A stretch of DNA of 22,620 nt from IMG/VR virus record IMGVR_UViG_3300042541_001090, positions 1 to 22,620 of that record; one strand, written 5' to 3'. The DNA comes from a virus. This document shows positions 3,723 through 19,011 of the stretch, piece after piece (positions within the stretch are counted from its first letter, which is position 1; each line of letters begins with the position of its first letter). A model generated the notes under the pieces. It was not told the DNA's origin. It searched no databases and saw only the letters and a program-made list of their open reading frames with translations. A program made the position numbers and the translations under genes.

Positions 3723-5732
3723 ATGGCTTTAAACTTTCCTGATAGCCCGACTTTAAATCAAGTTTATTCCGCCGGTGGAAAAACATGGTCTTATAATGGT
3801 TCTAGATGGGTATTGGTTATTGCTACTGCTATCATAGATGTAGCAGATGGATCTATTACAGCCGCAAAAATTGCGGATGGAACTATTGTTGCTGCTGAGA
3901 TTGCCAATAGCGCAATTACAACCGCAAAGATTTTGGATGCTAATGTGACAGCCGCCAAGATTGCTGCTGATGCAGTTACAACAGCAAAAATTGCCGATGC
4001 TAATGTGACAGCCTCCAAGATTGCTTCTGACGCAGTTACAACAGCCAAAATTCTAGATAGCAATGTCACTACAGCCAAGATTCTGGATGCCAATGTGACG
4101 ACTGCAAAAGTTGCGGCTAACGCAATAACTCAAGCAAAACTTGCTAGCAATCTTTCAGCAGTTACTGTAACCACTACAGCCAACAGGGATACAGATATCC
4201 CCACTCCGTTTACAGGGCAACTTGCTGTTTTGACGGACACCAGAAAAATTCAACTTTATGATGGAACATCTTGGGTGAATGTAAGTCTCGCACCACCAGA
4301 AACACCAACTTCGCTAAGCGCTACGGCTTTGGGTACGACATCTGTTTCTGTTGCGTTCACCGCTGGTGGGGCAAATGGTTCACCTATTACAAATTATAAG
4401 TACGCTCTTTCTACTAACGGTGGTTCAACTTATGGCTCATTTACGGCGCTAGACCCAGCAGACGCAACTACCCCGATTACTATTTCTGGGCTAACAGCCG
4501 CAACAACTTATTACATCAAACTTAAAGCGGTCAATGATTTAGGTGATTCTGTTGCGTCATCTGCTGTTTCAATCGGTACTCTCTCAACTCCTGATGCTCC
4601 AACTTCTTTGAGTGCTGGAAGTATTACAACAACTTCTGTTGCTATCTCATTTACACCAGGTTCGGATAATGGTTTTGCAATCACAAATTATCAATACGCT
4701 TTATCAACCAATGGCGGTTCAACTTACGGGTCATTCACTGCACTAGACCCTACGGACGCAACAAGTCCAATAACTATTTCTGGTTTAACAGCCGACACTT
4801 CTTATTATGTGAAACTAAAAGCAGTTAACAGTTCTGGTACAGGAGCAGAATCTTCTGCCGTTTCGTTTAGTACCAATCCTTTATTGGTTGTTAATTATCT
4901 TGTTGTTGCTGGCGGTGGCGGCGGAGGCACTGGTTATTACGCAGGGGGTGGTGGAGCAGGTGGTCTACGCTCAACCGTTACAGCAACAGGCGGCGGTGGT
5001 TCTTTAGAGTCAGCGTTGTCCCCCTCACTAAGCACCAACTACACAGTGACTGTTGGTGCAGGTGGCGGAGGCGGTCCAGACGTTACTACGGCTGGAGTAA
5101 ACGGTAGCAATTCTGTTTTTTCAACCATTACATCGGTTGGTGGTGGTGGTGCAGTATCTAGAAGTCAAAACGTAACTGGTGCAACTGGCGGTTCGGGTGG
5201 TGGTGTTTCATATTTAGGCTCACCAGGTAGCGGTACCGCAAATCAAGGTTTTGCTGGCGGTACTGGTGCATACGGCGGTTCAGGTGGTGGTGCTGGAGCC
5301 GTTGGCAATAGTGGAACTGGGAATAATATTTTAGGTGGTTATTATGGTTCTCCTGGTGCTATAGGTGTAGCAACAACAATTTCTGGTTCAAGTGTTTATT
5401 ACGCAGGCGGTGGCGCTGCTGGGTCAACTGATAATCCTGGTAATGCTGTTATGGCAGGCGGTCAAGGTGGTGGCGGTGCTGGTGGCTTGTCTGGTCTTGT
5501 TTTAGCATCATCGGGGACAACAAACACTGGTGGTGGCGGTGGCGGTGCTGGTGGTCCGCAAGATACTGCTTTTAGTTATGGCGCAGCAGGCGGTAGCGGT
5601 GTAGTTATTCTTCGTTACCCATCTGCTTACACAATCACTATCGGTGCAGGTTTAACGGGTTCCACCGCAAATGTTAGTTCAAACAAGGTTACAACTATTA
5701 CTTCTGGTTCTGGAAATGTGAGTTGGGCATAA
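3723..5732 (+). CDS. Large modular fibre: FPxSP module, decapeptide shaft, two FN3 domains, glycine-rich head
   Basis: A 669-aa protein. Residues 1-31 form an N-terminal module (MALNFPDSPTLNQVY to YNGSRWVL) shared with the genes at 5732 and 8735. Residues 45-144 are ten decapeptide units of the type VTTAKILDAN. Residues ~150-190 carry RDTDIPTPFTGQLAVLTDT and IQLYDGTSWV. Two fibronectin type III domains follow (~191-285 and ~286-383), each with a PxxPTSLSA opening and GLTAxTxYYxKLKAVN. The rest is a glycine-rich head starting YLVVAGGGGGG, closing GVVILRYPS and ending SGNVSWA. It is a virion fibre probably involved in attachment: FN3 and Gly-rich domains are typical of phage tail surface proteins. 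Its stop overlaps the next ATG (TAATG). Confidence 0.75.
   Translation: MALNFPDSPTLNQVYSAGGKTWSYNGSRWVLVIATAIIDVADGSITAAKIADGTIVAAEIANSAITTAKILDANVTAAKIAADAVTTAKIADANVTASKIASDAVTTAKILDSNVTTAKILDANVTTAKVAANAITQAKLASNLSAVTVTTTANRDTDIPTPFTGQLAVLTDTRKIQLYDGTSWVNVSLAPPETPTSLSATALGTTSVSVAFTAGGANGSPITNYKYALSTNGGSTYGSFTALDPADATTPITISGLTAATTYYIKLKAVNDLGDSVASSAVSIGTLSTPDAPTSLSAGSITTTSVAISFTPGSDNGFAITNYQYALSTNGGSTYGSFTALDPTDATSPITISGLTADTSYYVKLKAVNSSGTGAESSAVSFSTNPLLVVNYLVVAGGGGGGTGYYAGGGGAGGLRSTVTATGGGGSLESALSPSLSTNYTVTVGAGGGGGPDVTTAGVNGSNSVFSTITSVGGGGAVSRSQNVTGATGGSGGGVSYLGSPGSGTANQGFAGGTGAYGGSGGGAGAVGNSGTGNNILGGYYGSPGAIGVATTISGSSVYYAGGGAAGSTDNPGNAVMAGGQGGGGAGGLSGLVLASSGTTNTGGGGGGAGGPQDTAFSYGAAGGSGVVILRYPSAYTITIGAGLTGSTANVSSNKVTTITSGSGNVSWA
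3855..4154 (+). repeat. Ten decapeptide (30-bp) shaft repeats
   Basis: Codons 45-144 of the fibre encode ten units with the pattern (I/V)TxAKIxDxx. Two alternating sub-types (ILDAN and IASDA endings) make a 60-bp super-period. Similar repeats lie in the genes at 5732 and 8944. A fibrous, probably trimeric shaft is inferred from the short period and from known phage fibres with AKI repeats. Confidence 0.85.
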
Positions 5733-7708
5733 TGGCTTTTACTTTTCCTTCTTCTCCCGAAACTAACGATACTTTTACAGTAGGATCTCGCACATACACA
5801 TGGACCGGAACAAAATGGGTTTTAAGTGGTGGAGTAATTACTTCTACTCAGATAGAAGCAAATGCTATTACAACAGTAAAGATTTTAGATGGGGCCATTA
5901 CAGCCGCCAAAATCGCTGATGGCACAATCGTTGCTGCTGAGATCGCAAGCAATGCTGTTACTACAGCAAAAATTTTAGACGCAAACGTAACTGCTGCTAA
6001 AATTGCAAGTGATGCTGTTACTACAGCAAAGATTTTAGACGCAAATGTTACAGCTGATAAACTTTCAAGCAATGCTGTTACTACAGCAAAGATTTTAGAT
6101 GCAAATGTTACAGCTGATAAACTTTCAAGCAATGCTGTTACTACAGCAAAGATTTTAGATGCTGCGGTTACTCAAGCAAAACTTGGAACAACTCTTTCAG
6201 CAGTAACTGTTACCACAGCCGCCAATAGAGATACTGCTGTTACCAGTCCTTTTACGGGTCAATTAGTTTTCTTGACTGATACTAAAAAGATTCAGGTGTG
6301 GGATGGTACTAGCTGGATAACTATAACAATAGCTCCACCAGAAGCTCCTACATCTTTAAGCGCTGTTGCGTCAACTACTTCTGCTGCAATTTCATTTACC
6401 CTTGGGGCAGACAACGGTTCAGCGATCACTAACCACAAATATGCTCTTTCTACTGATGGTGGTTCCACATACGGGTCTTTTATTGCGTTAGACCCAGTAG
6501 ATATTACAAGCCCGATAACTGTTTCTGGTTTATCAATGAACACAGAATATTATGTTAAATTAAAAGCAGTGAATGGGGTAGGTGACTCTGTTGCTTCAAG
6601 TGCTGTTACTTTCACAACTGAAGGCGTTCCTGGCGCACCAACTTCTTTGAGTGCTTCAAGCATTACTGGTTCATCTGCTGCTATTGCTTTCACCGCTGGT
6701 GCGGCAAATGGTGCTTCTATAACGAACTACAAATTTGCTGTTTCAACAGATAATGTTACTTATGGTGCTTTCTCTGCACTAGACCCAGTAGATGCTTCTA
6801 CGCCAATAACAGTTACTGGTTTAACTGCTGGAACATTACAATACATTAAATTAAAAGCGGTAAATAGCAATGGTGATAGCGCCGCTTCTGCTGCTGTTTC
6901 CTTTACAACTTTACCAACATTGAGTATTGATGCGCTTATTGTTGGCGGTGGTGGCGGTGGCGGTGGTGTTGGCGGAGGAGATCCGGGTGGCAATGGTAGC
7001 GGAGGAGGCGGTGGCGGACAGGTTGCGACATTATCCACAGCAATATTAGCTGGAGACACATACACAATCACAGTTAGTGGTGGGGGTTCCAGTTCATCTG
7101 CTTTTTCTACTTCTGCTGTTAGGGGTGGCAATGGTGGTGGTGCTGGTTTAGGAAGCACAGGTTACAACAGCGAAGCTGGACAGTACAATAGCGGTGGTGG
7201 TGGCGGTAATGCTGGCGCAAACTCTGGAACAAACAGAACTGGGGGAAATGGTGGCGGTGGAGACACCGCAGGTGGTGGTGGAGGCGCTGGTAATGGCGCT
7301 AACGGAAATAGCGGCTCTGGTCCAAATGGCGGAAGCGGTGGTAATGGTACTTTAAGTGACATAACTGGGTCTAGCACTTATTATGCAGGCGGTGGCGGTG
7401 GTGGCCGAAGTGCTGGCGCTGGCGGCGCTGGCGGTGGTGGTGCTGGCGGCGCTGGCGGTGGGGCAAACGGTTGCGTCACTAGCGACACAACACCTTCAGC
7501 AACCCCAAACACAGGCGGTGGTGGTGCAGGCGGCACGTTTAACAACTGTGGCAGTGGCGGTGGAGCAAGTGGTGTCGTTATTTTTAGAGCACTTACATCG
7601 GCTGTATCGCAAAGAACAGTTACCACGACTGGATCTCCGACAATTACAACTTCGGGATCGTACACGGTGTATAAATACACCGGTAGCGGCACTTTTAATT
7701 GGAGTTAA
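5732..7708 (+). CDS. Large modular fibre, paralogue of the preceding gene
   Basis: A 658-aa protein. I chose ATG 5732, which overlaps the upstream stop, over an in-frame TTG nine bases earlier because MAFTFPSSPETNDTF aligns with the N-termini of the genes at 3723 and 8735. Residues 36-155 are twelve decapeptide repeats. A RDTAVTSPFTGQLVFLTDT segment follows, then two FN3 domains (~191-285, ~286-380) and a glycine-rich head from ALIVGGGGGGGG to GVVIFRA. Unlike its neighbour, the C-terminus is SYTVYKYTGSGTFNWS, which resembles the N-terminal strand of the glycine-rich protein at 9985. Same role as its paralogue: attachment fibre. The tandem pair may give alternative or hetero-oligomeric fibres. 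Confidence 0.75.
   Translation: MAFTFPSSPETNDTFTVGSRTYTWTGTKWVLSGGVITSTQIEANAITTVKILDGAITAAKIADGTIVAAEIASNAVTTAKILDANVTAAKIASDAVTTAKILDANVTADKLSSNAVTTAKILDANVTADKLSSNAVTTAKILDAAVTQAKLGTTLSAVTVTTAANRDTAVTSPFTGQLVFLTDTKKIQVWDGTSWITITIAPPEAPTSLSAVASTTSAAISFTLGADNGSAITNHKYALSTDGGSTYGSFIALDPVDITSPITVSGLSMNTEYYVKLKAVNGVGDSVASSAVTFTTEGVPGAPTSLSASSITGSSAAIAFTAGAANGASITNYKFAVSTDNVTYGAFSALDPVDASTPITVTGLTAGTLQYIKLKAVNSNGDSAASAAVSFTTLPTLSIDALIVGGGGGGGGVGGGDPGGNGSGGGGGGQVATLSTAILAGDTYTITVSGGGSSSSAFSTSAVRGGNGGGAGLGSTGYNSEAGQYNSGGGGGNAGANSGTNRTGGNGGGGDTAGGGGGAGNGANGNSGSGPNGGSGGNGTLSDITGSSTYYAGGGGGGRSAGAGGAGGGGAGGAGGGANGCVTSDTTPSATPNTGGGGAGGTFNNCGSGGGASGVVIFRALTSAVSQRTVTTTGSPTITTSGSYTVYKYTGSGTFNWS
5837..6196 (+). 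repeat. Twelve decapeptide (30-bp) shaft repeats
   Basis: Codons 36-155 encode twelve units. The DNA at 6061-6120 continues with a nearly perfect 60-bp copy at 6121, so at least one two-unit block was duplicated recently. A 39-base block here (5953-5991) is identical to 9153-9191 in another fibre gene. Confidence 0.85.
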
Positions 7709-7713
7709 ATAAT

Positions 7714-8079
7714 ATGGCTACATTTGCATTAGTTGATGAAGATAACATTGTTGTAAAAACAATTGTAATAAATAATGATGTGATAACAGATAAAAATGGA
7801 GTTGAGCAAGAATCTCTAGGTATAGATTTTTGTAATACAATATTTAAAGAAAAAGGGCGCTGGGTGCAAACTTCTTTTAATCATCGTTTTCGTAAACAGT
7901 GTGCGTATGAAGGTTATACATATGATTCAAAAGCAGATGTATTTATTGCGCCTCAACCTTACGCATCTTGGATTTTAAATGAATATTATGATTGGGTTTC
8001 TCCACTGCCAAAGCCAGAAGGGTATTATTGGTGGTCAGAAGAAAATTTATCTTGGGAGCCAATGAATATTGAATCTTGA
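7714..8079 (+). CDS. Conserved ~120-aa phage protein, copy 1 of 3 (RKQ ... YDWxxP family)
   Basis: A 121-aa protein. The ATG at 7714 is chosen because MATFALVDEDNIVVK aligns with its two paralogues (8309, 10632) and GGAG lies at a suitable distance; an upstream in-frame start would overlap the fibre gene. Conserved marks are VQTSFNHRFRKQ, YEGYTYDSKADVFIAPQPY, YDWVSPLPKPEG and a Trp-rich end (WWSEENLSWEP). The same layout occurs in many phages of aquatic bacteria, where it is annotated as hypothetical and lies beside tail-fibre genes. No signal peptide or membrane helix is present. A virion or fibre-assembly role is inferred from position only. Confidence 0.6.
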   Translation: MATFALVDEDNIVVKTIVINNDVITDKNGVEQESLGIDFCNTIFKEKGRWVQTSFNHRFRKQCAYEGYTYDSKADVFIAPQPYASWILNEYYDWVSPLPKPEGYYWWSEENLSWEPMNIES

Positions 8080-8095
8080 TAATTTAAATTATTTT

Positions 8096-8245
8096 TTACC
8101 ATTTGCCAAGAGGGCATTTTTGATTAAATATACGAGCTTTAACTTTCATAAAACACCTACATTCATTACATATATACAATGTTTTAGCTAATCTGGGGCA
8201 ATCAAAGCAAATACTAAGTCTTTTTGATATAATTTTTTCATCCAT
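8096..8245 (-). CDS. Small Cys-rich zinc-ribbon-like phage protein (49 aa)
   Basis: This short minus-strand gene fills most of what looks like a 229-base gap. It starts at ATG 8245-8243, ends at TAA 8098-8096 and encodes 49 residues beginning MDEKIISKRLSICFDCPRL. Six cysteines form CxxC (13, 16), CxxCxC (26, 29, 31) and a final C44 in the end CPLGKW. The arrangement 'RLxxCxxCPRL...CxxCxCFMxVKxRI...CPLGKW' matches a family of tiny phage proteins I recognise from tailed phages, probably a structural-zinc fold; its function is not known to me. There is no Shine-Dalgarno, but TAGTAT lies exactly six bases upstream of the ATG. The gene sits between two paralogues on the other strand. Confidence 0.8.
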   Translation of the reverse strand: MDEKIISKRLSICFDCPRLAKTLYICNECRCFMKVKARIFNQKCPLGKW

Positions 8246-8249
8246 ATTT

Positions 8250-8263
8250 GTATACTAGTATAC
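8250..8263. promoter_or_regulatory. Perfect 14-bp palindrome, candidate operator between divergent genes
   Basis: GTATACTAGTATAC is identical to its reverse complement. It begins five bases upstream of the minus-strand Cys-rich gene and contains that gene's predicted -10 (TAGTAT, + positions 8252-8257). It also lies six bases before the -35 of the divergent + promoter. A dimeric regulator bound here could control both genes; no regulator gene is seen in the window. Confidence 0.5.
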
Positions 8264-8268
8264 TACAA

Positions 8269-8298
8269 TTGGACATAATTCAAAGATTAAGTTATAAT
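8269..8298 (+). promoter_or_regulatory. Candidate promoter for the 8309 gene
   Basis: TTGGAC (8269-8274), an 18-base spacer and a perfect TATAAT (8293-8298). The 14-mer ATTAAGTTATAATA (8286-8299) recurs exactly at 13619-13632 before the lipoprotein gene. AGGAG follows directly and overlaps the predicted start region, so the true transcript start may be a few bases different. Confidence 0.55.
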
Positions 8299-8308
8299 AG
8301 GAGATACT

Positions 8309-8695
8309 ATGGCACATTACGCATTTATTAATTCCGAAAATATTGTGGTTAAAGTAATCACAGGTGTTGATGAAACAGAGACACAAACAGATACCGATGG
8401 CACTGTTGTCGGCGGGTCATCAGAAGCATGGGAAGCTTTTTATGCTTCTCAACCATGGCATGAAGGCTTGACCTGCAAACGCACTTCGTATAACAACACC
8501 ATCCGTAAACAATACGCAGGTATTGGTTTTACTTATGATACTGAAGCAGATGTATTTGTAGCCCCAAAACCTTTCCCATCTTGGACACTTGATTCAAATC
8601 ATGATTGGCAAGCACCTGTAGCCCGACCAGCAGAAGGCATGTGGTCGTGGAATGAAGAAACCTTGGCCTGGGTTGAAATTGTTGCACCAGAATAA
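8309..8695 (+). CDS. Conserved ~120-aa phage protein, copy 2 of 3
   Basis: A 128-aa paralogue of 7714-8079 and 10632-10967. Shared marks: MAHYAFINSENIVVKVI start, RTSYNNTIRKQYAGIGFTYD, ADVFVAPKPFPSWTLD, HDWQAPVARPAEG and WSWNEETLAWVE. An insertion of about ten residues after the first strand pair makes it the longest copy. It has its own promoter-like sequence and AGGAG ribosome site, unlike the other two copies, which are coupled to upstream fibre genes. Separate regulation and the intervening minus-strand gene suggest that it was duplicated and then captured its own promoter. The role is unknown; a virion or fibre-associated function is inferred from the neighbourhood. Confidence 0.6.
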   Translation: MAHYAFINSENIVVKVITGVDETETQTDTDGTVVGGSSEAWEAFYASQPWHEGLTCKRTSYNNTIRKQYAGIGFTYDTEADVFVAPKPFPSWTLDSNHDWQAPVARPAEGMWSWNEETLAWVEIVAPE

Positions 8696-8711
8696 GGTTT
8701 GCGTTTATAAT
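8682..8711 (+). promoter_or_regulatory. Candidate promoter before the 8735 gene
   Basis: TTGCAC (8682-8687), 18-base spacer, TATAAT (8706-8711). The following start has no clear Shine-Dalgarno. A second hexamer, GATAAT (8723-8728), lies exactly six bases before the ATG and could give a leaderless transcript instead. Confidence 0.4.
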
Positions 8712-8734
8712 AAAAAGTGTGAGATAATAAATAT

Positions 8735-8944
8735 ATGGCTGCAATAGACTTTCCAAATTCTCCGGCTTTGAATGATACATTTTCAAATGCGGGAAAAAAT
8801 TGGATCTATAACGGTTATGCATGGACATTGATAGGAGTTTCAACTCTTATCAATCCTGTATTAAGTACTACTGCTTTAGATGGCGGTAGTGCTGACACAA
8901 TTCAGTTTTATGTAATGAGTGCTGTTAATGGAGGAGGAGCTTAA
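8735..8944 (+). CDS. Stand-alone FPxSP N-terminal fibre module (69 aa)
   Basis: A 69-aa protein whose first half (MAAIDFPNSPALNDTFSNAG, then KNWIYNGYAWTLIG) is the same module that begins the large fibres at 3723 and 5732. Here the rest of the fibre is missing: after a ~30-residue tail the gene stops, and the shaft repeats are encoded by the next gene, which starts within the stop codon (TAATG). Either this is a split fibre in which the module works in trans, or it is the remnant of a once-fused fibre. The module probably anchors fibres to the virion or to one another; this is inferred from its constant N-terminal position. Confidence 0.6.
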   Translation: MAAIDFPNSPALNDTFSNAGKNWIYNGYAWTLIGVSTLINPVLSTTALDGGSADTIQFYVMSAVNGGGA

Positions 8945-9621
8945 TGCCAGTTCAAATTCAATTTCGTAGAGATACTGCTGCAGCTTGGACTGCTGCTAAC
9001 CCTGTTCTTGCAGCGGGAGAGCTGGGTCTAGAGACAGATACCACTTATTACAAGATTGGTGATGGCACTACGGCTTGGACTTCTTTGGCTTACGGTTCAA
9101 TTCTGGGAGTTATTTCTAACAACACTATTACAGCAGCAATGATACAAAGCAGTGCTGTTACTACAGCAAAAATTTTAGACGCAAACGTAACAGCTGCTAA
9201 ACTTGCAAGTGATGCTGTTACAACTGTTAAGATTTTGGATGCTAACGTAACTGCAGCAAAAATTGCAAGTGATGCTGTTACAACTGTTAAGATTTTGGAT
9301 GCTAACGTAACTGCAGCAAAAATTGCAAGTGATGCTGTTACAACTGTTAAGATTTTAGACGCAAACGTAACAGCTGCTAAACTTGCAAGTGATGCTGTTA
9401 CAACTGTTAAGATTTTGGATGCTAACGTAACTACTGACAAGCTTGCAAATGCTGCTGTTACATCTGCTAAACTTGCAAATACAGCAGTATCAGCTGGAAC
9501 ATACACAACTGCTGATATTACGGTTGATGCTCAAGGTAGATTGACTGCGGCATCTAGCGGCACTGCTGGAACACCTGTTGATAGCGATCAGGCAATATTA
9601 AGTTCACAAGTATTCGGATAA
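8944..9621 (+). CDS. Fibre with Mtd-like N-terminus and decapeptide shaft
   Basis: A 225-aa protein. Residues 1-50 (MPVQIQFRRDTAAAWTAANP, ELGLETDTTYYKIGDGTTAW) match the N-terminal module of the major-tropism-determinant type found on many phage fibres: RRDTxxxWxxxNPVLxxGExGxExDTxxxKIGDGxTxW. Residues 62-181 are twelve decapeptide repeats. Then VDAQGRLTAAS, shared with the fibre at 19675, and a VFG end like the fibre at 838. It lacks FN3 and glycine-rich domains, which may be supplied by the next two genes. The start codon overlaps the stop of the upstream gene. Confidence 0.7.
   Translation: MPVQIQFRRDTAAAWTAANPVLAAGELGLETDTTYYKIGDGTTAWTSLAYGSILGVISNNTITAAMIQSSAVTTAKILDANVTAAKLASDAVTTVKILDANVTAAKIASDAVTTVKILDANVTAAKIASDAVTTVKILDANVTAAKLASDAVTTVKILDANVTTDKLANAAVTSAKLANTAVSAGTYTTADITVDAQGRLTAASSGTAGTPVDSDQAILSSQVFG
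9127..9486 (+). repeat. Twelve decapeptide repeats with exact 60- to 81-bp duplications
   Basis: Codons 62-181. The 60-bp blocks at 9181 and 9361 are identical, and the identity extends over about 81 bases (9172-9252 versus 9352-9432). The blocks at 9241 and 9301 are identical to each other for more than 50 bases. The A-B-B-A order at DNA level shows recent duplication or gene conversion. Confidence 0.85.
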
Positions 9622-9636
9622 CATAGGAGATAAAAC

Positions 9637-9981
9637 ATGGCAACATTTAGTAAAATAAAATTATCAGAAAGTACAGATGGTCTACCCATTAAAGTCGTTC
9701 AAACTGCTACAGCTGGTACAACAATTCATACAGCACACGCTTCGGCTCTTGACGAGGTTTGGCTTTATGCTTACAACGGTAACAGCGCTGATGTTGTTTT
9801 AACAATAGAGTACGGTGGAGCAACAGTCCCTGACCAAAACATTATTACAACTGTTGTATCAAAAGCAGGACTAGTTCTTGTAGTGCCTGGTCTATTGCTT
9901 ACAAACAGCAAGGTATTGAAAGCATTTGCTGCAACAGCAAATGTTATTACACTCTCTGGGTATATTAACCGGATCGCATAA
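9637..9981 (+). CDS. Small beta-rich structural protein, third ~115-aa family member
   Basis: A 114-aa protein with the pattern 'TAxAGTTIHTA...LDEVWLYAYNGNSADVVLTIEYGG ... VPDQNI ... LVLVVPGLLLTNSKVLKAFA ... VITLSGYINRI'. It occupies the same place as 2358-2711 in a repeated three-gene cassette (VFG-ending fibre, this protein, glycine-rich protein). The 'xxNxxxxxVxLxIxxGG' strand and 'PGLLLTNSxxLKAFA' strand are usual in small phage fibre-associated proteins. It starts behind TAGGAGA (9625-9631). The product is probably virion-associated; the exact role is unknown. Confidence 0.55.
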   Translation: MATFSKIKLSESTDGLPIKVVQTATAGTTIHTAHASALDEVWLYAYNGNSADVVLTIEYGGATVPDQNIITTVVSKAGLVLVVPGLLLTNSKVLKAFAATANVITLSGYINRIA

Positions 9982-11714: not shown

Positions 11715-13235
11715 TTAATGTTTAAGTTTTTGTAAGAAATCATAATGGTTAGTGCAATAAGGCACTGTAATTTTTTGTTCTTCTAAAATTTTTAAATACT
11801 CTTGAGTGTGGTCTACTGGTAGAAACTCGGCATATTTTAATAATTGTTCATTTGTAAGAATGCCCTGACCATACATCACATGATAATAACTATGCACACT
11901 AAACGATTGTTCTAGATATTTGGAATTACTTATATAGCCACCGTCTTTTACAAGCTCAAGTAGGTATTCTACTGCTTCTGGAGTTTTGTTATTTATTTTA
12001 AAATTTTTCCAAAAATCTGTATTTTGTTTATTAGTTAGATAGTGGATATATATAAAGTCAACTATTTCCTCTGTTGCGAGCAAGTATGTTTGATTTAGTC
12101 CATCACGCACATACTCATGAACATTATCTATGTTTCTATGCAATGTAAAAAAATACTTTAAAGTAGATACTGCTTGCCATAAAGATGTTGCTTCTAGCGG
12201 TTCTAAAAAACCAGCAGATAGCCCTATTGCTAGACAATTTTTTATCCAAACCTTTTCATAACATCCTGCATTAAATGAAAATGTTTTGGGCGAGTCGGTT
12301 TCAAAACCAATATATTGATCAATTTCTCTTTTAGCCTCATCATCAGAAATAAAGTCAGAATCAAATACATAGCCGCATCCATATCTATGCTGCAATGGTA
12401 TTTTCCACATCCACCCATAATTCATTGCTATTGACTCTGTATATGGAGGTATCTTTTTATCTATTGGTAAAAAAAATGGAATGGCTCGTTTGGCTGGTAA
12501 ATGTTTTGCGTGTGATTTCCATTTAGATTTATAAAAATCACCAATAATTAAACGTCTAAAACCACTGCAGTCAAATACAAAATCAACAGGAATTATTATA
12601 TCGTTTACTACGAGTGACGTAATGTAATTGTCATCATTATTTTTAATTTCTTTCACCACGCCCTCAACTCTTTTAATCCCTCTTGATTCTCCAACTTGTC
12701 TTAAAAATTTGGCGAGAACTCGTGCATCAAAATGTAAAGACCACAGACCGTAGTTATCAAATTTTTCTAGTGGATTACTCACATTAATTTTATCGTTTTC
12801 AATAAAAGGCACGCAAAAATTGTCTGACATTTGTTGATAAAATACGTGTTCATTAAATTTATGTTTTAATTGTGCTGAATATATTAATGAAAAACATGTG
12901 TCTTTTTCTATAAATGGATTTAATCTATAAGAGTGTGTTTCAGATGCAGACGAATACGAAGCAAATGGATGGTAATAATATTGTGTGTTTGCTGACCAAT
13001 TTGTAAATTTAATACCGTTTTTTATGGTTGCATTACAATTTTTAACTAAATCAGAAAATGGTATTCCTAAAAAATCAAAAAACCCAACAAGGTGAGGAGT
13101 TGTTCCTTCGCCAGCACCCAATATGCCAATCTCGTCACTTTCAATTAAAACTATATTTGTATCTGGATAGATTATTTGCGCGTAAAGAGCAGTCATCCAA
13201 CCCGCAGTCCCGCCACCGACAATAACTACATTCAT
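11715..13235 (-). CDS. Flavin-dependent halogenase (tryptophan-halogenase family)
   Basis: A 506-aa protein of normal length for the family. It would chlorinate, brominate or iodinate an electron-rich substrate using FADH2, O2 and halide. FAD-binding GGGTAG is at residues 7-12. CNATIKNGIKFTNW contains K72, which corresponds to the catalytic Lys (K79 of PrnA and RebH) that carries the hypohalite. The hallmark WxWxIP appears as GWMWKIP (274-280). The active-site Glu region is GFLEPLEAT (342-350). All essential motifs are intact. The substrate is unknown: VirX1, from a cyanophage, is a precedent for a broad-range viral halogenase. No flavin reductase is in the window. It begins one base after the stop of the upstream membrane-protein gene and opposes the surrounding genes. 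Confidence 0.9.
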   Translation of the reverse strand: MNVVIVGGGTAGWMTALYAQIIYPDTNIVLIESDEIGILGAGEGTTPHLVGFFDFLGIPFSDLVKNCNATIKNGIKFTNWSANTQYYYHPFASYSSASETHSYRLNPFIEKDTCFSLIYSAQLKHKFNEHVFYQQMSDNFCVPFIENDKINVSNPLEKFDNYGLWSLHFDARVLAKFLRQVGESRGIKRVEGVVKEIKNNDDNYITSLVVNDIIIPVDFVFDCSGFRRLIIGDFYKSKWKSHAKHLPAKRAIPFFLPIDKKIPPYTESIAMNYGWMWKIPLQHRYGCGYVFDSDFISDDEAKREIDQYIGFETDSPKTFSFNAGCYEKVWIKNCLAIGLSAGFLEPLEATSLWQAVSTLKYFFTLHRNIDNVHEYVRDGLNQTYLLATEEIVDFIYIHYLTNKQNTDFWKNFKINNKTPEAVEYLLELVKDGGYISNSKYLEQSFSVHSYYHVMYGQGILTNEQLLKYAEFLPVDHTQEYLKILEEQKITVPYCTNHYDFLQKLKH

Positions 13236-13637: not shown

Positions 13638-13823
13638 ATGAATAAACCGGCCCGAATTTTTGTATTTATAGCTATATTTATAGCCGTGTTTGCTCTAAGC
13701 GGATGTTCTCGTTATCGCTATGAATGTCAAGATTATGCAAACTGGGAAAAACCAGAATGCAATCCGCCGATCTGTGTTCCGGATGGGATATGCACAAAAG
13801 ATGTGCTCAAGGAGGCTCCATAA
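13638..13823 (+). CDS. Small phage lipoprotein
   Basis: A 61-aa protein. A basic start and hydrophobic helix (residues 7-20) lead to the lipobox LSGC with C23 as the lipidated residue. The mature part has four further Cys (30, 41, 46, 52) in YRYECQDYANWEKPECNPP and ICVPDGICTKDV, which probably form disulfides outside the membrane. Similar 'CQDPxNWxKPxCxPPxC' lipoproteins are frequent in phages of aquatic bacteria, often near the holin and endolysin. A spanin-like role is conceivable but unproven. First gene of a coupled operon; its stop overlaps the next ATG (TAATG). Confidence 0.7.
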   Translation: MNKPARIFVFIAIFIAVFALSGCSRYRYECQDYANWEKPECNPPICVPDGICTKDVLKEAP

Positions 13824-14131
13824 TGAGTTATGATAAAAAGCGTTATACAGGGGATGAACTTCACGCCCGAATGATTTTTACTGTAGCCATTATTTTGGCA
13901 GCAGTTTTTGCCATAACAGTCATTGGCTTTGTTTATGCTTTGATGTTTGTTACCCAGCCACTCGGACAACAATCACCTAACGACTCTGCGTTTATTGACT
14001 TGCTCAAAACATTGACCGTATTCCTTACCGGTTCGCTTGGTGGTCTGGTCATGTCAAACGGAATGAAATCAAAAAAATCACAAGAAGACAAGGATGGTAA
14101 CGGTATTCCTGATCACCTGGAAGGCGGCTGA
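13823..14131 (+). CDS. Two-helix phage membrane protein with Ca-loop-like C-terminus
   Basis: A 102-aa protein. Start ATG 13823 is chosen because AAGGAGG precedes it and MSYDKKRYTGDELHARMIFT matches the usual N-terminus of this phage family; a longer frame would overlap the lipoprotein gene. Helix 1 is residues 17-43 and helix 2 about 62-77. The soluble end is DKDGNGIPDHLEG (89-101), with the DxDxNGxPD spacing of calcium-binding loops in thrombospondin type 3 and dockerin repeats. The size, two helices and position would suit a holin-like or holin-regulating protein, but another holin candidate lies near the endolysin. TGATG overlap with the nuclease gene. Confidence 0.6.
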   Translation: MSYDKKRYTGDELHARMIFTVAIILAAVFAITVIGFVYALMFVTQPLGQQSPNDSAFIDLLKTLTVFLTGSLGGLVMSNGMKSKKSQEDKDGNGIPDHLEGG

Positions 14132-14535
14132 TGTACGAATACCGTGTAAAGAAAGTTCTTAAAGTTGTTGATGGGGACACTATTGATGTTGACATTGATT
14201 TGGGATTCAGTATTTCTTATACCCAGCGTGTTCGTCTTGCCGGTATTGATACACCTGAATCTCGTACAACAGATAAAGCCGAAAAAGTTTTGGGGTTGGA
14301 AGTAAAAGACAGATTAAAAAAAGCAATTGATGCTGCAACAAATATTGTTATCAAAACCGAAAAGCCAGACAGTTCAGAAAAGTATGGTCGTATTTTGGGT
14401 TGGGTATTTCTTGATGACAACAAAGTGTCTATCAATCAAACATTGATTGATGAAGGCTATGCGTGGGGTTATATGGGCGAAACAAAAGTTAAAGACTTTG
14501 ATGCGCTTTTAAAGAAGAGAAATGGCAAAAAGTAA
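14131..14535 (+). CDS. Staphylococcal-nuclease-like (thermonuclease family) nuclease
   Basis: A 134-aa OB-fold nuclease. All catalytic residues of the family are present: D16 in VVDGDT, R35, D40 and E43 in VRLAGIDTPE, and R87 in KYGRILG; D40, E43, R35 and R87 even share the numbering of mature S. aureus nuclease. It would cut DNA or RNA in a Ca-dependent reaction giving 3'-phosphates. There is no signal peptide, so it probably acts inside the infected cell, for example on host nucleic acid for nucleotide recycling. It is coupled by TGATG to the membrane protein upstream and by TAATG to the ferredoxin downstream. Confidence 0.9.
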   Translation: MYEYRVKKVLKVVDGDTIDVDIDLGFSISYTQRVRLAGIDTPESRTTDKAEKVLGLEVKDRLKKAIDAATNIVIKTEKPDSSEKYGRILGWVFLDDNKVSINQTLIDEGYAWGYMGETKVKDFDALLKKRNGKK

Positions 14536-14780
14536 TGAAGGTTTGGATTGATCAAGACTTATGTACTGGCGATGGACTGTGTGCAGAAATAGCTCCGGAT
14601 GTGTTCATCATGCTGGAGGATGGGTTGGCGTATGTTCAAGAGAATGGGAAAGTATATTCAAAGTTGCGAGGGAACCCAGAAGGCGCAAGTGGGTTGGCTT
14701 CTTTCGCAGACGATAGGCTAGCCGATGTTATTGATGCGGCTGAAGATTGCCCAGGTGAATGTATTTTCATAGAGGAATAA
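14535..14780 (+). CDS. Single-cluster bacterial ferredoxin ([3Fe-4S] or [4Fe-4S] type)
   Basis: An 81-aa electron carrier. The cluster motif is CTGDGLC (C10, D13, C16) and a distant CPGEC (C72-P73, C76). Asp replaces the second Cys of a classical CxxCxxC site, so a [3Fe-4S] cluster, or a [4Fe-4S] with Asp ligand, is expected. The N-terminus MKVWIDQDLCTGDGLC is typical of small actinobacterial ferredoxins that serve cytochromes P450. It differs from the plant-type [2Fe-2S] ferredoxins of cyanophages. No oxidoreductase partner is encoded in the window, so it probably serves a host enzyme or a phage enzyme elsewhere. It could in principle help supply reduced flavin to the halogenase; this is speculative. 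Confidence 0.85.
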   Translation: MKVWIDQDLCTGDGLCAEIAPDVFIMLEDGLAYVQENGKVYSKLRGNPEGASGLASFADDRLADVIDAAEDCPGECIFIEE

Positions 14781-14781
14781 A

Positions 14782-17700
14782 ATGAATACCCCTCGTAAGG
14801 TTAGTTTGGCTTTCCGAAATAAAATATCATGGTTGCCATTCGCATTGGCATTCATGGGACTTATTGCCCCGATACAGCAAGTCAGAGCAGACGAAGATCC
14901 AACTCCAATATCTGATGCTGGCTTTGAAAGTAATTCTTTTTCTGGTTGGTCAAAAGGTAATCAAACCGGAAACTTAAATGCTACAACTATTGGCGGTAAC
15001 GGCACTGGCGTAACTATTTTTAGCGGGTTAAGAACATTTACGCACTCCTCTCATCCGGCTATCGGAAATCCTCTTAAGAACGGTCAACCAAATCCTTATT
15101 ATGCCCCATCTGTTCCAGCGGGTAGTTGGGCATTTCAGCCAAGCGCTGGCGGATACGCTGTTGCTTTGCAACCCAAAGGTGAGCAAACATTTACTCAAGC
15201 AAGAACTGCTCTTGGTCTTTCAAGTGGTGATGAAACAGCAATAAAAGCAATTCTTACAGCAGACTCTCAAGCCGGTCTTGGAGGAGGTTCCAATCCGACA
15301 GACGCTGCGTGGATTACAAGAGAAGTTGAATTAACAGCTGGCACTACATACACAATGTCTTGGAATTATTTGGGGACAGACTATGTACCTTTTAATGACG
15401 GTTCAATAACATCATTAATTTTTGTTTCAGCTACCGCTCCAACAACTACTACCACAAGTAGTACAACCACTATTGAATCAACAACAACCCTTGCGTCAAC
15501 AACTACTATTGCCCCAACTACAACAGTTGAATCAACAACTACAATTGCATCTACAACCACAATTGCTCCAACCACAACTGTTGAGTCAACAACAACAGTT
15601 GCCCCAGCAACAACTGTTGCTCCAACAACTACGGTTGAGTCAACAACAACCGTTGCTCCACCGACTACTGTTGAATCAACAACAACAATTCCAGTATCTT
15701 CTATGGCTAATGAAGAGCCAATTATTACTGTTAACAATTATGTTAGATCATATGCGTTGCTTGGGTTTACAAATCCGGGAACAGGAGATTATTCAACAAA
15801 CTCATATGGCGCAACTGGCTGGCAAACATCAACATATGAAGTTTCAGTTACCGGTATTTATAAATTAGGATTTGCTGTTTTCAATCTTGGCGATACCGCA
15901 TTGTCTCCAATATTGATTATTGATAACACAAATGGTTCAACAGAAAAATGTGTATCTGGAGCTTGCTCGTCATTTGGCGGAGTGCCATCCAATAATTCAA
16001 CAGCCCCAACCGTTGCACCAACGACTACCGCTGACGCTTCTACAACTTCCACATCTACCACCACAACAAGCAGCACAACCACCACTGTTTTTATAAATAC
16101 AACAAACCAGCCAGTAACCCAAACAACTGTAGAAAATGACCCAGAAGAGCCTATAGACCCCTCTGAGACCGATCCAGGGCTAGTAGGTACCACACTCCCA
16201 CAAGTAATAGTGATAGACCCTGAAACAGAATCCACAACGGTGACGCTTCCAACAGAAACATTGCCTGAAACCGGACAAACAGTAGCGACCATTCCAGAAG
16301 ATGGGGAACCAACCGAAACAACCATCCCAGAAGAGTGGGAACCAACAGACACAACTTTGCCCCTAATAGTAATAGACCCAACAAAACCCGGAACGGTAGT
16401 AGTAATAATTCCACCAGATGATTATACCGTCACCGATGTAGAAGACAACGAGCCAATCACGACAGCAATACTGGATAACATTCTTGAAGATACATTCACG
16501 CCTGGCGTTGAAATTACTGCTGATGAAGTTGGTGCTGTTCTTGACACACTTCTTGGGGCGGAGCTTACTGATACTCAGCTTGACAATGTTTTAGAAGCCG
16601 TGTTTACCGAAGATGTTTCGGCAGATGTATTTACTGAAGCACTGACAACAATGCTAGATGCAGACATAACTAGCGAACAACTTATAGCAGTTTTGGATTC
16701 TGCTTTCTCTGAAGATACTTCTGCTGAGAATATGGTGGCGGCTTTGGATTCAATTTTTGATGGCCCAATTAGTTCTGGCGATTTAGATAAAGTTATGGAA
16801 GCTGTGTTTGATGAGGACATTTCTGTTGAGGACACTATGGAAGTGCTTGGCGACTTGCTTGAAACAAATCTCAGTCAAGCAGAAACAGAAGCAGTATTTG
16901 ACAGCGTGTTTGATGCAGATCTTTCCGATGCAGAAACCATTGACCTCATCGTTGATGTATTGAAAGACGGTCTTACCGCAGACAATTTAGGTGCTGCTCT
17001 TGGTGCAGTCTTTGACGAAGAAGTAAGTACTGAGGTTTTGATTGAAACTTTTACTGCCGTCTTGGGCAACGAACTTAACGAAGAATCACTTGGGGTCATC
17101 GTTGATGTTTTGGAATCAGAATCAATTACAAGCGAGCAAGTTGGACAAGTTGTTACGTTGGTAATTGAACAGGAAGGTGGTATTCCTAGTGACCAAGCAA
17201 CAGAGCTGGCAACGAGTCCTAAAGTTCTTGAAAGCATTGACGGTGAACAAGCAACAGAAGTTTTTGCTGCAGTTGTTGTTTCCGAAGTTTCGGCAGAAGA
17301 TGGAGCGGCTATATCTGAAGCACTTATAGAAGCATCTGTTGAAGTTAAGGAATCATTTGAAGAAGAAATAAATGTTTTTACTGGAGTATTTGATACTTAT
17401 ATTGCTGTTGGTTCAGTAGTTGACACTGGTGATCGTAGGTCTTTAATTGCAGCAGCGGCAGCAGTTGCTACTGTTGCTGCAAACGCTGTAGCTGGTGGTG
17501 CTGGTTCAAATGGTTCTGGGGGAAATTCTGGTGGGGGAAGTCCTAGCGGAGATTCTAATCGTGCTGCAAGAAAAGAAGAAGAGCAAGAAATGGCTGGAGA
17601 AATATCTGGCGGAGAAGATGATGATACAGATTATGCTAAAAATAGCATTTTCAGGTATTATATTGAGGAGGGTATAGAGATGAAAAAATTTGATTTGTTA

Positions 17701-17874
17701 GGTTTTGTTAAAAAACTTTGGGATATAACAGCTGGTTTGGCTTTTACAATTGCCGGAAGCGTTGTTGTTTATTACACACTTTCTGGTATGACGCAAAAGA
17801 TTGCTTTATTTTCTACGATAATGGCTTGTGTAGTTCATTATGTGCATCAAATATTTAAAAACGATACCGATTAA
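14782..17874 (+). CDS. Giant secreted, membrane-anchored protein: mucin-like tracts and 17-aa acidic repeats
   Basis: A 1030-aa protein. A signal peptide (hydrophobic ~17-30) ends with a VRA site, cleavage after A36. Residues ~43-215 hold a beta-sandwich with DAGFESNSFSGWSKGN, like bacterial carbohydrate-binding or choice-of-anchor domains. Thr-rich tracts lie at ~216-305 and ~410-443, then an acidic Pro/Thr/Glu linker. Twelve perfect 17-residue acidic helical repeats occupy residues 581-784. Then an RRSLIAAAAAVATVAA segment, a Gly/Ser linker, an RAARKEEEQEMAG charged stretch and two hydrophobic segments near the end (~982-1001, ~1007-1025). I recognise this C-terminal plan from uncharacterised phage proteins but know no function. 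It lies between the ferredoxin and the lysis genes. Cell-surface remodelling or superinfection control is possible. Confidence 0.65.
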   Translation: MNTPRKVSLAFRNKISWLPFALAFMGLIAPIQQVRADEDPTPISDAGFESNSFSGWSKGNQTGNLNATTIGGNGTGVTIFSGLRTFTHSSHPAIGNPLKNGQPNPYYAPSVPAGSWAFQPSAGGYAVALQPKGEQTFTQARTALGLSSGDETAIKAILTADSQAGLGGGSNPTDAAWITREVELTAGTTYTMSWNYLGTDYVPFNDGSITSLIFVSATAPTTTTTSSTTTIESTTTLASTTTIAPTTTVESTTTIASTTTIAPTTTVESTTTVAPATTVAPTTTVESTTTVAPPTTVESTTTIPVSSMANEEPIITVNNYVRSYALLGFTNPGTGDYSTNSYGATGWQTSTYEVSVTGIYKLGFAVFNLGDTALSPILIIDNTNGSTEKCVSGACSSFGGVPSNNSTAPTVAPTTTADASTTSTSTTTTSSTTTTVFINTTNQPVTQTTVENDPEEPIDPSETDPGLVGTTLPQVIVIDPETESTTVTLPTETLPETGQTVATIPEDGEPTETTIPEEWEPTDTTLPLIVIDPTKPGTVVVIIPPDDYTVTDVEDNEPITTAILDNILEDTFTPGVEITADEVGAVLDTLLGAELTDTQLDNVLEAVFTEDVSADVFTEALTTMLDADITSEQLIAVLDSAFSEDTSAENMVAALDSIFDGPISSGDLDKVMEAVFDEDISVEDTMEVLGDLLETNLSQAETEAVFDSVFDADLSDAETIDLIVDVLKDGLTADNLGAALGAVFDEEVSTEVLIETFTAVLGNELNEESLGVIVDVLESESITSEQVGQVVTLVIEQEGGIPSDQATELATSPKVLESIDGEQATEVFAAVVVSEVSAEDGAAISEALIEASVEVKESFEEEINVFTGVFDTYIAVGSVVDTGDRRSLIAAAAAVATVAANAVAGGAGSNGSGGNSGGGSPSGDSNRAARKEEEQEMAGEISGGEDDDTDYAKNSIFRYYIEEGIEMKKFDLLGFVKKLWDITAGLAFTIAGSVVVYYTLSGMTQKIALFSTIMACVVHYVHQIFKNDTD
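15430..15690 (+). repeat. Thr-rich mucin-like low-complexity repeats
   Basis: Imperfect tandem units encode ESTTT(I/V)A(P/S)TTT. The DNA varies at third codon positions, so the repeat is old enough to have diverged and is maintained at protein level. It is probably an extended, possibly O-glycosylated stalk. A shorter Thr-rich tract lies at about 16010-16110. Confidence 0.8.
16522..17133 (+). repeat. Twelve consecutive 51-bp (17-aa) acidic repeats
   Basis: Units run without any insertion or deletion from DEVGAVLDTLLGAELTD to ESLGVIVDVLESESITS. The approximate consensus is xxLxxVLDxVFDEDISx: hydrophobic at positions 3, 6, 7, 10, 11 and 15, acidic at 8, 13 and 14, and Ser or Thr at 16. Degenerate units continue after 17133. 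At DNA level the units are well diverged. Confidence 0.85.
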
Positions 17875-17939: not shown

Positions 17940-18137
17940 ATGTCTAGTTTGTTGAATGAGAATAATAAGAAAATGTTAGCGTCTTATGCTAGGTCTTGTG
18001 TTGGAGCAGGTCTTGCAGTCTATATGACGGGAAACACAAGTCCAAAAGATATCGCAACGGCAGCATTTGCTGGTTTAGTTCCAGTTATTATGCGTTGGTT
18101 GAATCCAAACGATCCAGCTTTTGGTCGCGGTAAATAA
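17940..18137 (+). CDS. Putative holin
   Basis: A 65-aa protein just before the endolysin, with two short hydrophobic stretches (about residues 14-30 and 38-54) and a basic C-terminus (NPNDPAFGRGK). The N-terminus LLNENNKKMLASYARS and the RWLNPNDPAFGR end match small proteins encoded beside endolysins in related phages. Holins make lesions in the cytoplasmic membrane that time lysis and release the endolysin. The identification rests on size, membrane segments and position. It has the strongest Shine-Dalgarno in the window (AGGAGG) and its own promoter and leader hairpin, which fits a tightly controlled lysis gene. Confidence 0.6.
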   Translation: MSSLLNENNKKMLASYARSCVGAGLAVYMTGNTSPKDIATAAFAGLVPVIMRWLNPNDPAFGRGK

Positions 18138-18156: not shown

Positions 18157-19011
18157 ATGAATAAAAAAGTTGAATGGGACATCATTGTTCCGGTTAAATT
18201 ACCAATTAGTTTAAAAAATGTAGAACCTGGCAAACTCCACCCATCGCTACTCCGTGACATTCCGCAGGGAGGTAAGTTACATTACCTTGCTGCTGATGCA
18301 TGGAATGCGATGGTGGATGCTGCTAAAAAAGATGGTGTTGAATTGAAGCCGACTAGTTCGGGAGATACTTATAGAAGTTATGACGCTCAGAAAGCTGGGT
18401 TTTTACAAAGATATCAATTACAACCAATTCCTGGCCAGAGTACAAAAACTTTTGAAGGTAAGACTTGGTATCTTAAAAAAGGTATGGCTATGCTGGCTAC
18501 ACCAGGCAAGAGTCAACATAATTTAGGTTTGGCTGTAGATATTCATACTGCCGGAGAGCCAAAGCGTTTGAAATGGCTTATCGCTAATGTTTTAAAATTT
18601 GGATTTAGTTGGGAAGTTGTTCCAAGCGAACCATGGCATATACGCTACACAGAGGGTGATGCTGTTCCTCAAGCTGTTAAGGATTGGCTTACTCTTAACC
18701 CCAAACCAGCAGGTATGTTTGGCACACCAGCAGAGCAGAAAGCTGTTGCTGAAACTGTTGTCGCTAAAGCACAAGAGCCAAAAACAATAGATACATCTAT
18801 TGCAAATGGCAAACCAAAAATTATTAAAGATTATAAAGGCAAAGCCGTAAAAGAAGCACAAGATTTACTTACTAAGCATGGTTTTCAATGCCGCCCTGAT
18901 GGTGATTTTGGTCCAAAAACTCAAGAAGTTGTTAAGCAATTTCAAAAATCAAAATCTATTCCTATCACTGGAGAAGTTGACGAATTAACATGGGCGGCTT
19001 TGCTCTCTTAA
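18157..19011 (+). CDS. Endolysin: M15/VanY-type D,D- or L,D-peptidase with peptidoglycan-binding domain
   Basis: A 284-aa enzyme expected to cut the stem peptides of the host cell wall at lysis. The M15 zinc site is complete: SQHNLGLAVD gives ligands H121 and D128, and EPWHIRY gives catalytic E158 and ligand H161. The earlier TYRSYDAQ (71-78) is the conserved substrate-side segment of VanY enzymes. The C-terminal part (about 224-283) is a PG_binding_1 domain: KGKAVKEAQDLLTKHGF, DGDFGPKTQEVVKQFQ, and TGEVDELTWAALL. A Lys/Ala/Pro linker joins the two. No signal peptide is present, so holin-dependent release is expected. Starts behind AAGGAG, 20 bases after the holin stop. Confidence 0.9.
   Translation: MNKKVEWDIIVPVKLPISLKNVEPGKLHPSLLRDIPQGGKLHYLAADAWNAMVDAAKKDGVELKPTSSGDTYRSYDAQKAGFLQRYQLQPIPGQSTKTFEGKTWYLKKGMAMLATPGKSQHNLGLAVDIHTAGEPKRLKWLIANVLKFGFSWEVVPSEPWHIRYTEGDAVPQAVKDWLTLNPKPAGMFGTPAEQKAVAETVVAKAQEPKTIDTSIANGKPKIIKDYKGKAVKEAQDLLTKHGFQCRPDGDFGPKTQEVVKQFQKSKSIPITGEVDELTWAALLS

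Follow-up and report, generated by a model that had tools for sequence, protein, structure and literature searches.

The window discussed here is the whole stretch of DNA that was analysed, 22,620 nt corresponding to positions 1 to 22,620 of IMG/VR record IMGVR_UViG_3300042541_001090, and its focal open reading frame (14782-17874, plus strand) encodes 1030 residues that include twelve gap-free acidic units in frame. The gene, its parts and its immediate neighbours are the following, where signal-peptide and transmembrane (TM) predictions come from simple hydropathy rules and TM topology from hydropathy and models only.

13724-14131, +: small TM protein of phrog_25359 (PHROG match), in the same gene run
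14131-14535, +: SNase-like nuclease (Pfam, PHROG), in the same gene run
14535-14780, +: 81-aa ferredoxin-like protein, its identity read from the sequence
14782-17874, +: whole focal gene, a predicted 1030-aa exported, membrane-anchored phage protein (ORF and relatives)
14782-14889, +: Sec signal peptide-like N-terminus, residues 1-36, ending VRA before DE (sequence)
14890-15438, +: head, first part, a predicted CBM-like beta-sandwich (AF2, Foldseek, weak NF038132 match)
15439-15717, +: Thr-rich disordered insert within a head hairpin (alignment, pLDDT about 33, tandem repeats)
15718-15996, +: head, second part, with the YALLGFTNPGTGDYS core (alignment)
15997-16461, +: Thr/Pro/Glu-rich linker, or stalk, fast evolving (dN/dS 0.35-0.71)
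16522-17133, +: twelve 17-residue acidic units, equal to six 34-residue helical hairpins (residues 581-784)
17134-17184, +: thirteenth helix in register, at the start of the conserved C-domain (AF2 helix 784-795)
17134-17442, +: conserved juxtamembrane C-domain, FEEEINxFxGxFDxYxxxGSxxxxGxRR (alignment A1)
17425-17496, +: predicted membrane helix after RR, residues 882-905 (AF2 model, hydropathy)
17497-17643, +: Gly/Ser and acidic linker, where fused and split forms differ (comparison of relatives)
17644-17871, +: phrog_29041-like two-TM hairpin, encoded by its own gene in 46 relatives (relatives, PHROG match)
17940-18137, +: 65-aa protein with hydrophobic stretches, a holin candidate (homologues at +1 in 8 loci)
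18157-19011, +: endolysin, VanY peptidase plus PG_binding_1 (Pfam, PHROG)

Relatives were gathered through the C-domain, for which alignment A1 proved too divergent for scans of the collections and a closer alignment, A2, was used instead. Scanning viral contigs twice yielded 159 loci which, together with 3 loci in cellular genomes and 1 in an annotated phage, reduce to 84 non-redundant C-domain proteins; all of the viral sequences are metagenomic contigs. In the window, the genes for the small TM protein, SNase, ferredoxin-like protein, focal protein, 65-aa protein and endolysin form a tight, co-directional run, the ferredoxin-like frame stopping 1 base before the focal start codon, and this shared direction with the lysis genes suggests late expression of the focal gene; promoter-like and terminator-like sites occurred about as often as expected by chance. 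Homologues of the ferredoxin-like protein occur in 13 of the 84 loci, within three genes in 8, and a homologue of the 65-aa holin candidate had no PHROG match. The VanY region of the endolysin (18157-19011) also matches part of the tape-measure family phrog_16823 (E 1.4e-42), which suggests exchange between lysis and tail genes.

The repeat in the window is real and diverged, and is best described as six 34-residue pairs. A sequence-only reading of this DNA had claimed twelve gap-free 17-residue acidic repeats keeping a 51-bp period in diverged DNA, and both claims are borne out: the units occupy exactly 16522-17133, in frame, with 53 D/E versus 2 K/R (net charge -51 per 204 residues), and DNA identity at lag 51 is 0.439 versus 0.315 in codon shuffles (z 6.4). 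The units have diverged, since their mean pairwise identity is 23% for protein and 45% for DNA, too far for Tandem Repeats Finder, among whose listed repeats the array is missing. The 17-residue spacing is likewise real, but the structural unit is a two-helix hairpin of 34 residues: amino-acid identity is 0.193 at lag 17 (0.093 shuffled, z 4.7) and 0.300 at lag 34 (z 9.4 against shuffles), DNA identity reaches 0.478 at lag 102 (z 8.0 against codon shuffles), and because the lag-34 and 102-bp signals exceed those at 17 and 51, the array is read as six pairs. Across the family, a 17-residue profile with its threshold calibrated on shuffled sequence found 783 units in the 84 proteins, and the 574 spacings shorter than 23 residues include 541 of 17 (94%), 26 of 19, 2 of 18 and 3 of 22; in the 19-residue spacings, read by eye, the two extra residues sit in the inter-helix loop. 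Unit length, which the same reading took to be under selection, is conserved strongly though not absolutely, with homologues departing from 17 weakly, in the few spacings of 18, 19 or 22. Family-wide, similarity between units is again highest at lag 2 (0.293 vs 0.250 at lag 1), and acidity is general (mean -25 per 100 residues). The low identity of the units (23%) might suggest that the periodicity arose by chance or that the acidic tract is disordered, but this explanation is already refuted by the z of 9.4 at lag 34, by the 94% of short spacings that equal 17 across 84 proteins and by a mean pLDDT of 90.7 for the predicted fold.

That fold comes from an AlphaFold2 model of residues 560-908 built with 60 family sequences (mean pLDDT 90.7, pTM 0.79), in which helices begin at intervals of about 17 residues and are, for the most part, alternately about 13 and about 11 residues long. 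The model places the block in the alpha-solenoid class, with no specific relative indicated, in agreement with the helical solenoid foreseen from the letters alone; the prediction is confidently helical rather than disordered. Foldseek against the PDB returned TPR, PPR, HEAT-like and designed helical repeats, many at probability near 1, at TM-scores no higher than 0.30 and with E below 0.001 for one match only. The curvature that AlphaFold gives to long solenoids is unreliable. The window protein thus shares with TPR, PPR and designed alpha-solenoids the stacking of 34-residue two-helix repeats, but differs in having no TPR or PPR match in Pfam even at E<=1, in a global superhelix that does not superpose (TM-score at most 0.30) and in its alternation of ~13- and ~11-residue helices with acidic loops. 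The earlier view that no characterised repeat family fits also stands, as sequence searches of Pfam, PHROGs, NCBIfam and the PDB matched none. Sub-threshold Pfam matches to the GatB/YqeY and glycosyltransferase-3 N-terminal (Glycos_trans_3N) domains in many relatives share a short helix-loop-helix; however, these are single helical domains without a solenoid, the matches lie below the curated cut-offs, and both were rejected as the repeat family and taken as a common helix-loop pattern. The acidic 34-residue repeat is a new sequence family among alpha-solenoids. It was also proposed earlier that the acidic repeats perhaps bind calcium, to which the acidic inter-helix loops lend some appeal, but I consider this quite improbable: the fold is confidently predicted without metal, no calcium-binding repeat was returned by sequence (Pfam, PHROGs) or structure searches, the window protein has no EF-hand, dockerin or RTX match in Pfam at E<=1, and a PDB match to calcium and integrin-binding protein is sub-threshold and at chance level (E 0.89).

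Copy number varies within the family. Viral proteins have a median run of 11 units (maximum 15), while no run in the chromosomal relatives exceeds 5 units. In close pairs, solenoid dN/dS is 0.07-0.15, from which the solenoid is judged to be under purifying selection, and the linker evolves faster (0.35-0.71). In one relative (L005) the solenoid is 98% identical although the head is a different one (26% identity), and three others (L012, L004, L019) keep heads that are 89-96% identical above solenoids only 39-47% identical, so that head and rod are exchanged independently.

Below the solenoid lies what looks like a two-part membrane anchor. The alignment shows E, G, D, Y, G, R and A to be invariant in the C-domain, which leads into the predicted membrane helix. 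The two-TM hairpin that follows is fused to the C-domain protein in 37 of the 84 relatives; in 46 of the 47 non-fused relatives it is encoded by a small gene of its own, which in most cases overlaps the C-domain gene or lies just after it, and the sole protein without a hairpin is on a contig that ends there. Both fused and split forms also occur among chromosomal relatives. The constancy of this pairing suggests that C-domain and hairpin act jointly in the membrane, and the combination looks like an undescribed mode of anchoring surface proteins in an actinobacterial lineage. The hairpin matches phrog_29041, a PHROG of unknown function, and the holin phrog_608 only marginally (E 0.066). In some phages the parts are spread over neighbouring genes: at L078 a solenoid/C-domain gene (6684-8729) adjoins an LPxTG-anchored head gene (8723-9913), as also at L061 and L073, and at all three loci the hairpin gene overlaps or follows the adjacent C-domain and head genes. 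The window protein itself has an LPETG within its linker that is not directly followed by a TM segment, and its C-terminus is without LPxTG plus TM plus basic tail.

At the other end, a simple rule recognises a similar signal-peptide-like N-terminus in 76 of 78 relatives, and the head (residues 37-405) is modelled by AlphaFold2 as a beta-sandwich whose Thr-rich insert is missing from most relatives in the alignment; NCBIfam LpxD/LpxA-like matches to residues 216-303 lie in this insert and were set aside as composition artefacts. The top Foldseek match of the head is CBM61 (probability 0.99, E 0.02), a weak resemblance to CBM61/CBM16 at no significant E-value, and the PEP-CTERM family NF038132 in NCBIfam matches weakly at residues 297-382 (26.3 bits, within a range of 26-34 bits for the head, vs a curated cut-off of 90), so the head may be called carbohydrate-binding-like only by weak fold resemblance. 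It was found at 362 viral places, in 0 of 50,697 annotated phage records and in 0 of 222 genomes of one actinobacterial family, with the window's own record as positive control; a plasmid search gave matches confined to the PA14 region of the query. The 73 non-redundant head ORFs include 13 truncated and 60 complete, and all 60 complete proteins carry a surface anchor, which is the C-domain in 49, LPxTG in 9 and a barrel-like C-terminus in 2, one matching Pfam Autotransporter (8.6e-14) and the second identified from similarity together with an aromatic residue at its end. Related phages thus mount the same head domain on LPxTG proteins and on autotransporters, whereas the C-terminus of the window protein uses neither. 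Barrels of autotransporter type bearing the same head lie in other phages at L058 7890-10205 and L062 7914-10226.

The hosts appear to be actinobacteria, an assignment based on WhiB, on chromosomal relatives of the anchor and on the published prediction for phage DSL-LC01 (PMC10611076). WhiB, an actinobacterial regulator that in a control of 14 genomes was positive in Corynebacterium alone, occurs in 26 of 29 large phage records, including a 59.5-kb record that encodes the window protein at 100% identity (L003/G783). The one barrel-anchor record tested (L058/G793) has no WhiB, and hence the anchor appears to follow the host envelope type. None of the 29 large records encodes a tyrosine integrase, and these phages are therefore probably virulent. 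Among the 50,697 annotated phage records the C-domain was found only in Actinomycetia phage DSL-LC01, called lysogenic by its authors (PMC10611076), where the hypothetical protein WJZ48438.1 matches in the C-domain and the two-TM tail, with 48% identity across 185 residues, but has one unit and no detected solenoid array, a different head and no annotation.

The possibility of a purely viral family was rejected once 14 of the 222 genomes of one actinobacterial family proved, by profile search, to carry the C-domain, several with clearly chromosomal neighbours; the phylum-wide (2/396) and order-wide (2/198) searches found the same two genomes, both in the family list. A pattern scan of 84,980 species genomes found 3 C-domain loci. 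Two of them sit among clearly chromosomal genes, which I take from their sequences to be oxidoreductases, a DedA-like protein and mycofactocin-type genes; the third comes from a MAG labelled Gammaproteobacteria, where the surrounding genes are of phage type and recur at viral loci, and is probably a mis-binned phage. The genome and phage searches together indicate that the anchor is common to host-type chromosomes, and that the head and long solenoid are phage features. The sequence-only reading had overlooked both this sharing of the anchor and the place of the phage gene a short way before the endolysin. In chromosomal relatives at L163 (5856-8861), L166 and L170, RCC1 propeller repeats and DUF4082 precede the same anchor.

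From these observations I tentatively favour the reading that the phage makes this protein for display on the actinobacterium it infects, with superinfection exclusion as the most likely benefit. The two parts of this statement differ in strength: display at the host surface is very probable from architecture and comparative evidence, with 76 of 78 signal-peptide-like N-termini, the constant hairpin pairing and 60 of 60 anchored complete heads in its favour, whereas exclusion of other phages as the benefit is a suggestion that I would put somewhat below even. The earlier claims that the protein is anchored and probably exposed on the cell or membrane accord with this, the former through the signal-peptide-like N-terminus and C-terminal hydrophobic segments and the latter through the surface anchors on complete head proteins and their N-termini. 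In outline, the signal peptide would export the protein via Sec; the C-domain with its one TM helix, together with the two-TM hairpin, would form a bipartite module holding it in the membrane; the acidic solenoid of 34-residue hairpins would be a stiff, highly negative rod spanning from membrane to wall; the Thr/Pro/Glu-rich linker would traverse the wall; and the carbohydrate-binding-like head would sit at the cell surface, where it may cover or bind glycans to which phages adsorb, and/or the acidic rod may disturb DNA injection at the membrane, in the way that the acidic repeats of phage TP-J34 Ltp do through their contact with the tape measure protein.

Ltp of Streptococcus phage TP-J34 is the nearest parallel, since it combines a repeat domain with a Ser-rich spacer and a membrane anchor, and negative residues in the repeats matter for its contact with the tape measure protein, at the end of that protein which is positively charged (PMC3952083). 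Both are phage-encoded and exposed at the cell surface, very probably so for the window protein, with an anchor, a low-complexity spacer and repeats (PMC3952083), Ltp anchored outside the cytoplasm and the window protein having a predicted signal peptide and TM segments; but Ltp is a lipoprotein of the lysogeny module, whereas the window protein has TM anchors, lies beside lysis genes and has far more repeats and a large head. No sequence homology to Ltp or to another exclusion protein appeared, in that no solved structure or annotated phage record of this type matched the window protein, which would be an analogue of Ltp and probably not a homologue.

Exclusion proteins of the classical kind work early in infection or from a prophage, and against exclusion the co-directional lysis genes suggest late expression in phages that are probably virulent, while the resemblance of the head to a CBM is weak (E 0.02). 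Virulent phage T5, for its part, makes a surface lipoprotein that blocks its own receptor. If late expression were confirmed, a role in guarding the progeny, or the cell shortly before it lyses, would be a better fit than exclusion at an early stage. One head with anchors chosen according to the host envelope (an autotransporter barrel, a sortase signal or the undescribed two-part membrane module) could perhaps constitute a host-surface display system of aquatic phages, in which the solenoid would be a phage-expanded spacer and injection block, although I propose this with reserve. Actinobacteria are among the most abundant freshwater bacteria, yet the ways in which their phages deal with the host envelope are, to my knowledge, poorly understood; a phage surface protein that is widespread and unannotated, and whose three anchors are interchangeable, would make superinfection exclusion, or phage-driven surface remodelling, testable.

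Display could also bring a different benefit if the head is an adhesin by which infected cells, or the debris they leave, attach to other cells, to particles or to free glycans, helping progeny to spread. The modular heads, with NF038132-like, PA14, fn3-like and beta-helix-like segments, are consistent with this, as are the swapping of heads while the solenoid is kept and the RCC1 and DUF4082 heads of chromosomal relatives, but the proposal is so far without a ligand and predicts aggregation, and I regard it as unlikely, if the most serious alternative. Less likely still is a protein of the lysis module, in which a holin-like hairpin would be joined to a rod that disrupts or senses the envelope at lysis. 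An endolysin-type gene does follow on the same strand, no more than five genes away, in 48 of 84 loci, and the marginal holin match (phrog_608, E 0.066) points the same way; however, the C-domain and hairpin are also found on bacterial chromosomes away from phage genes, many large phages carry the module without an adjacent endolysin, and heads may use LPxTG or barrel anchors instead. A virion role as tail fibre or spike, to which the tail-fibre-like genes upstream in the window and the beta-sandwich-like head might point, was rejected as highly improbable, since the virion proteins of tailed phages, being assembled in the cytoplasm, are not expected to bear signal peptides or cell-surface anchors, of which three kinds are seen here.

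Elsewhere in the window, tail-fibre-like proteins at 3911-4108, 5946-6184 and 9153-9480 contain 20-residue (60-bp) repeats of the type AVTTAKILDANVTAAKIASD, over which the opposite-strand ORFs are probably shadows, and a structural-type protein holds three 87-bp repeats (87% matches) at 2044-2304. Between the tail and lysis genes, on the opposite strand (11715-13235, minus), lies a tryptophan halogenase (Pfam E 3.8e-109), and a tryptophan 7-halogenase homologue is likewise reported by the authors of DSL-LC01 (PMC10611076).
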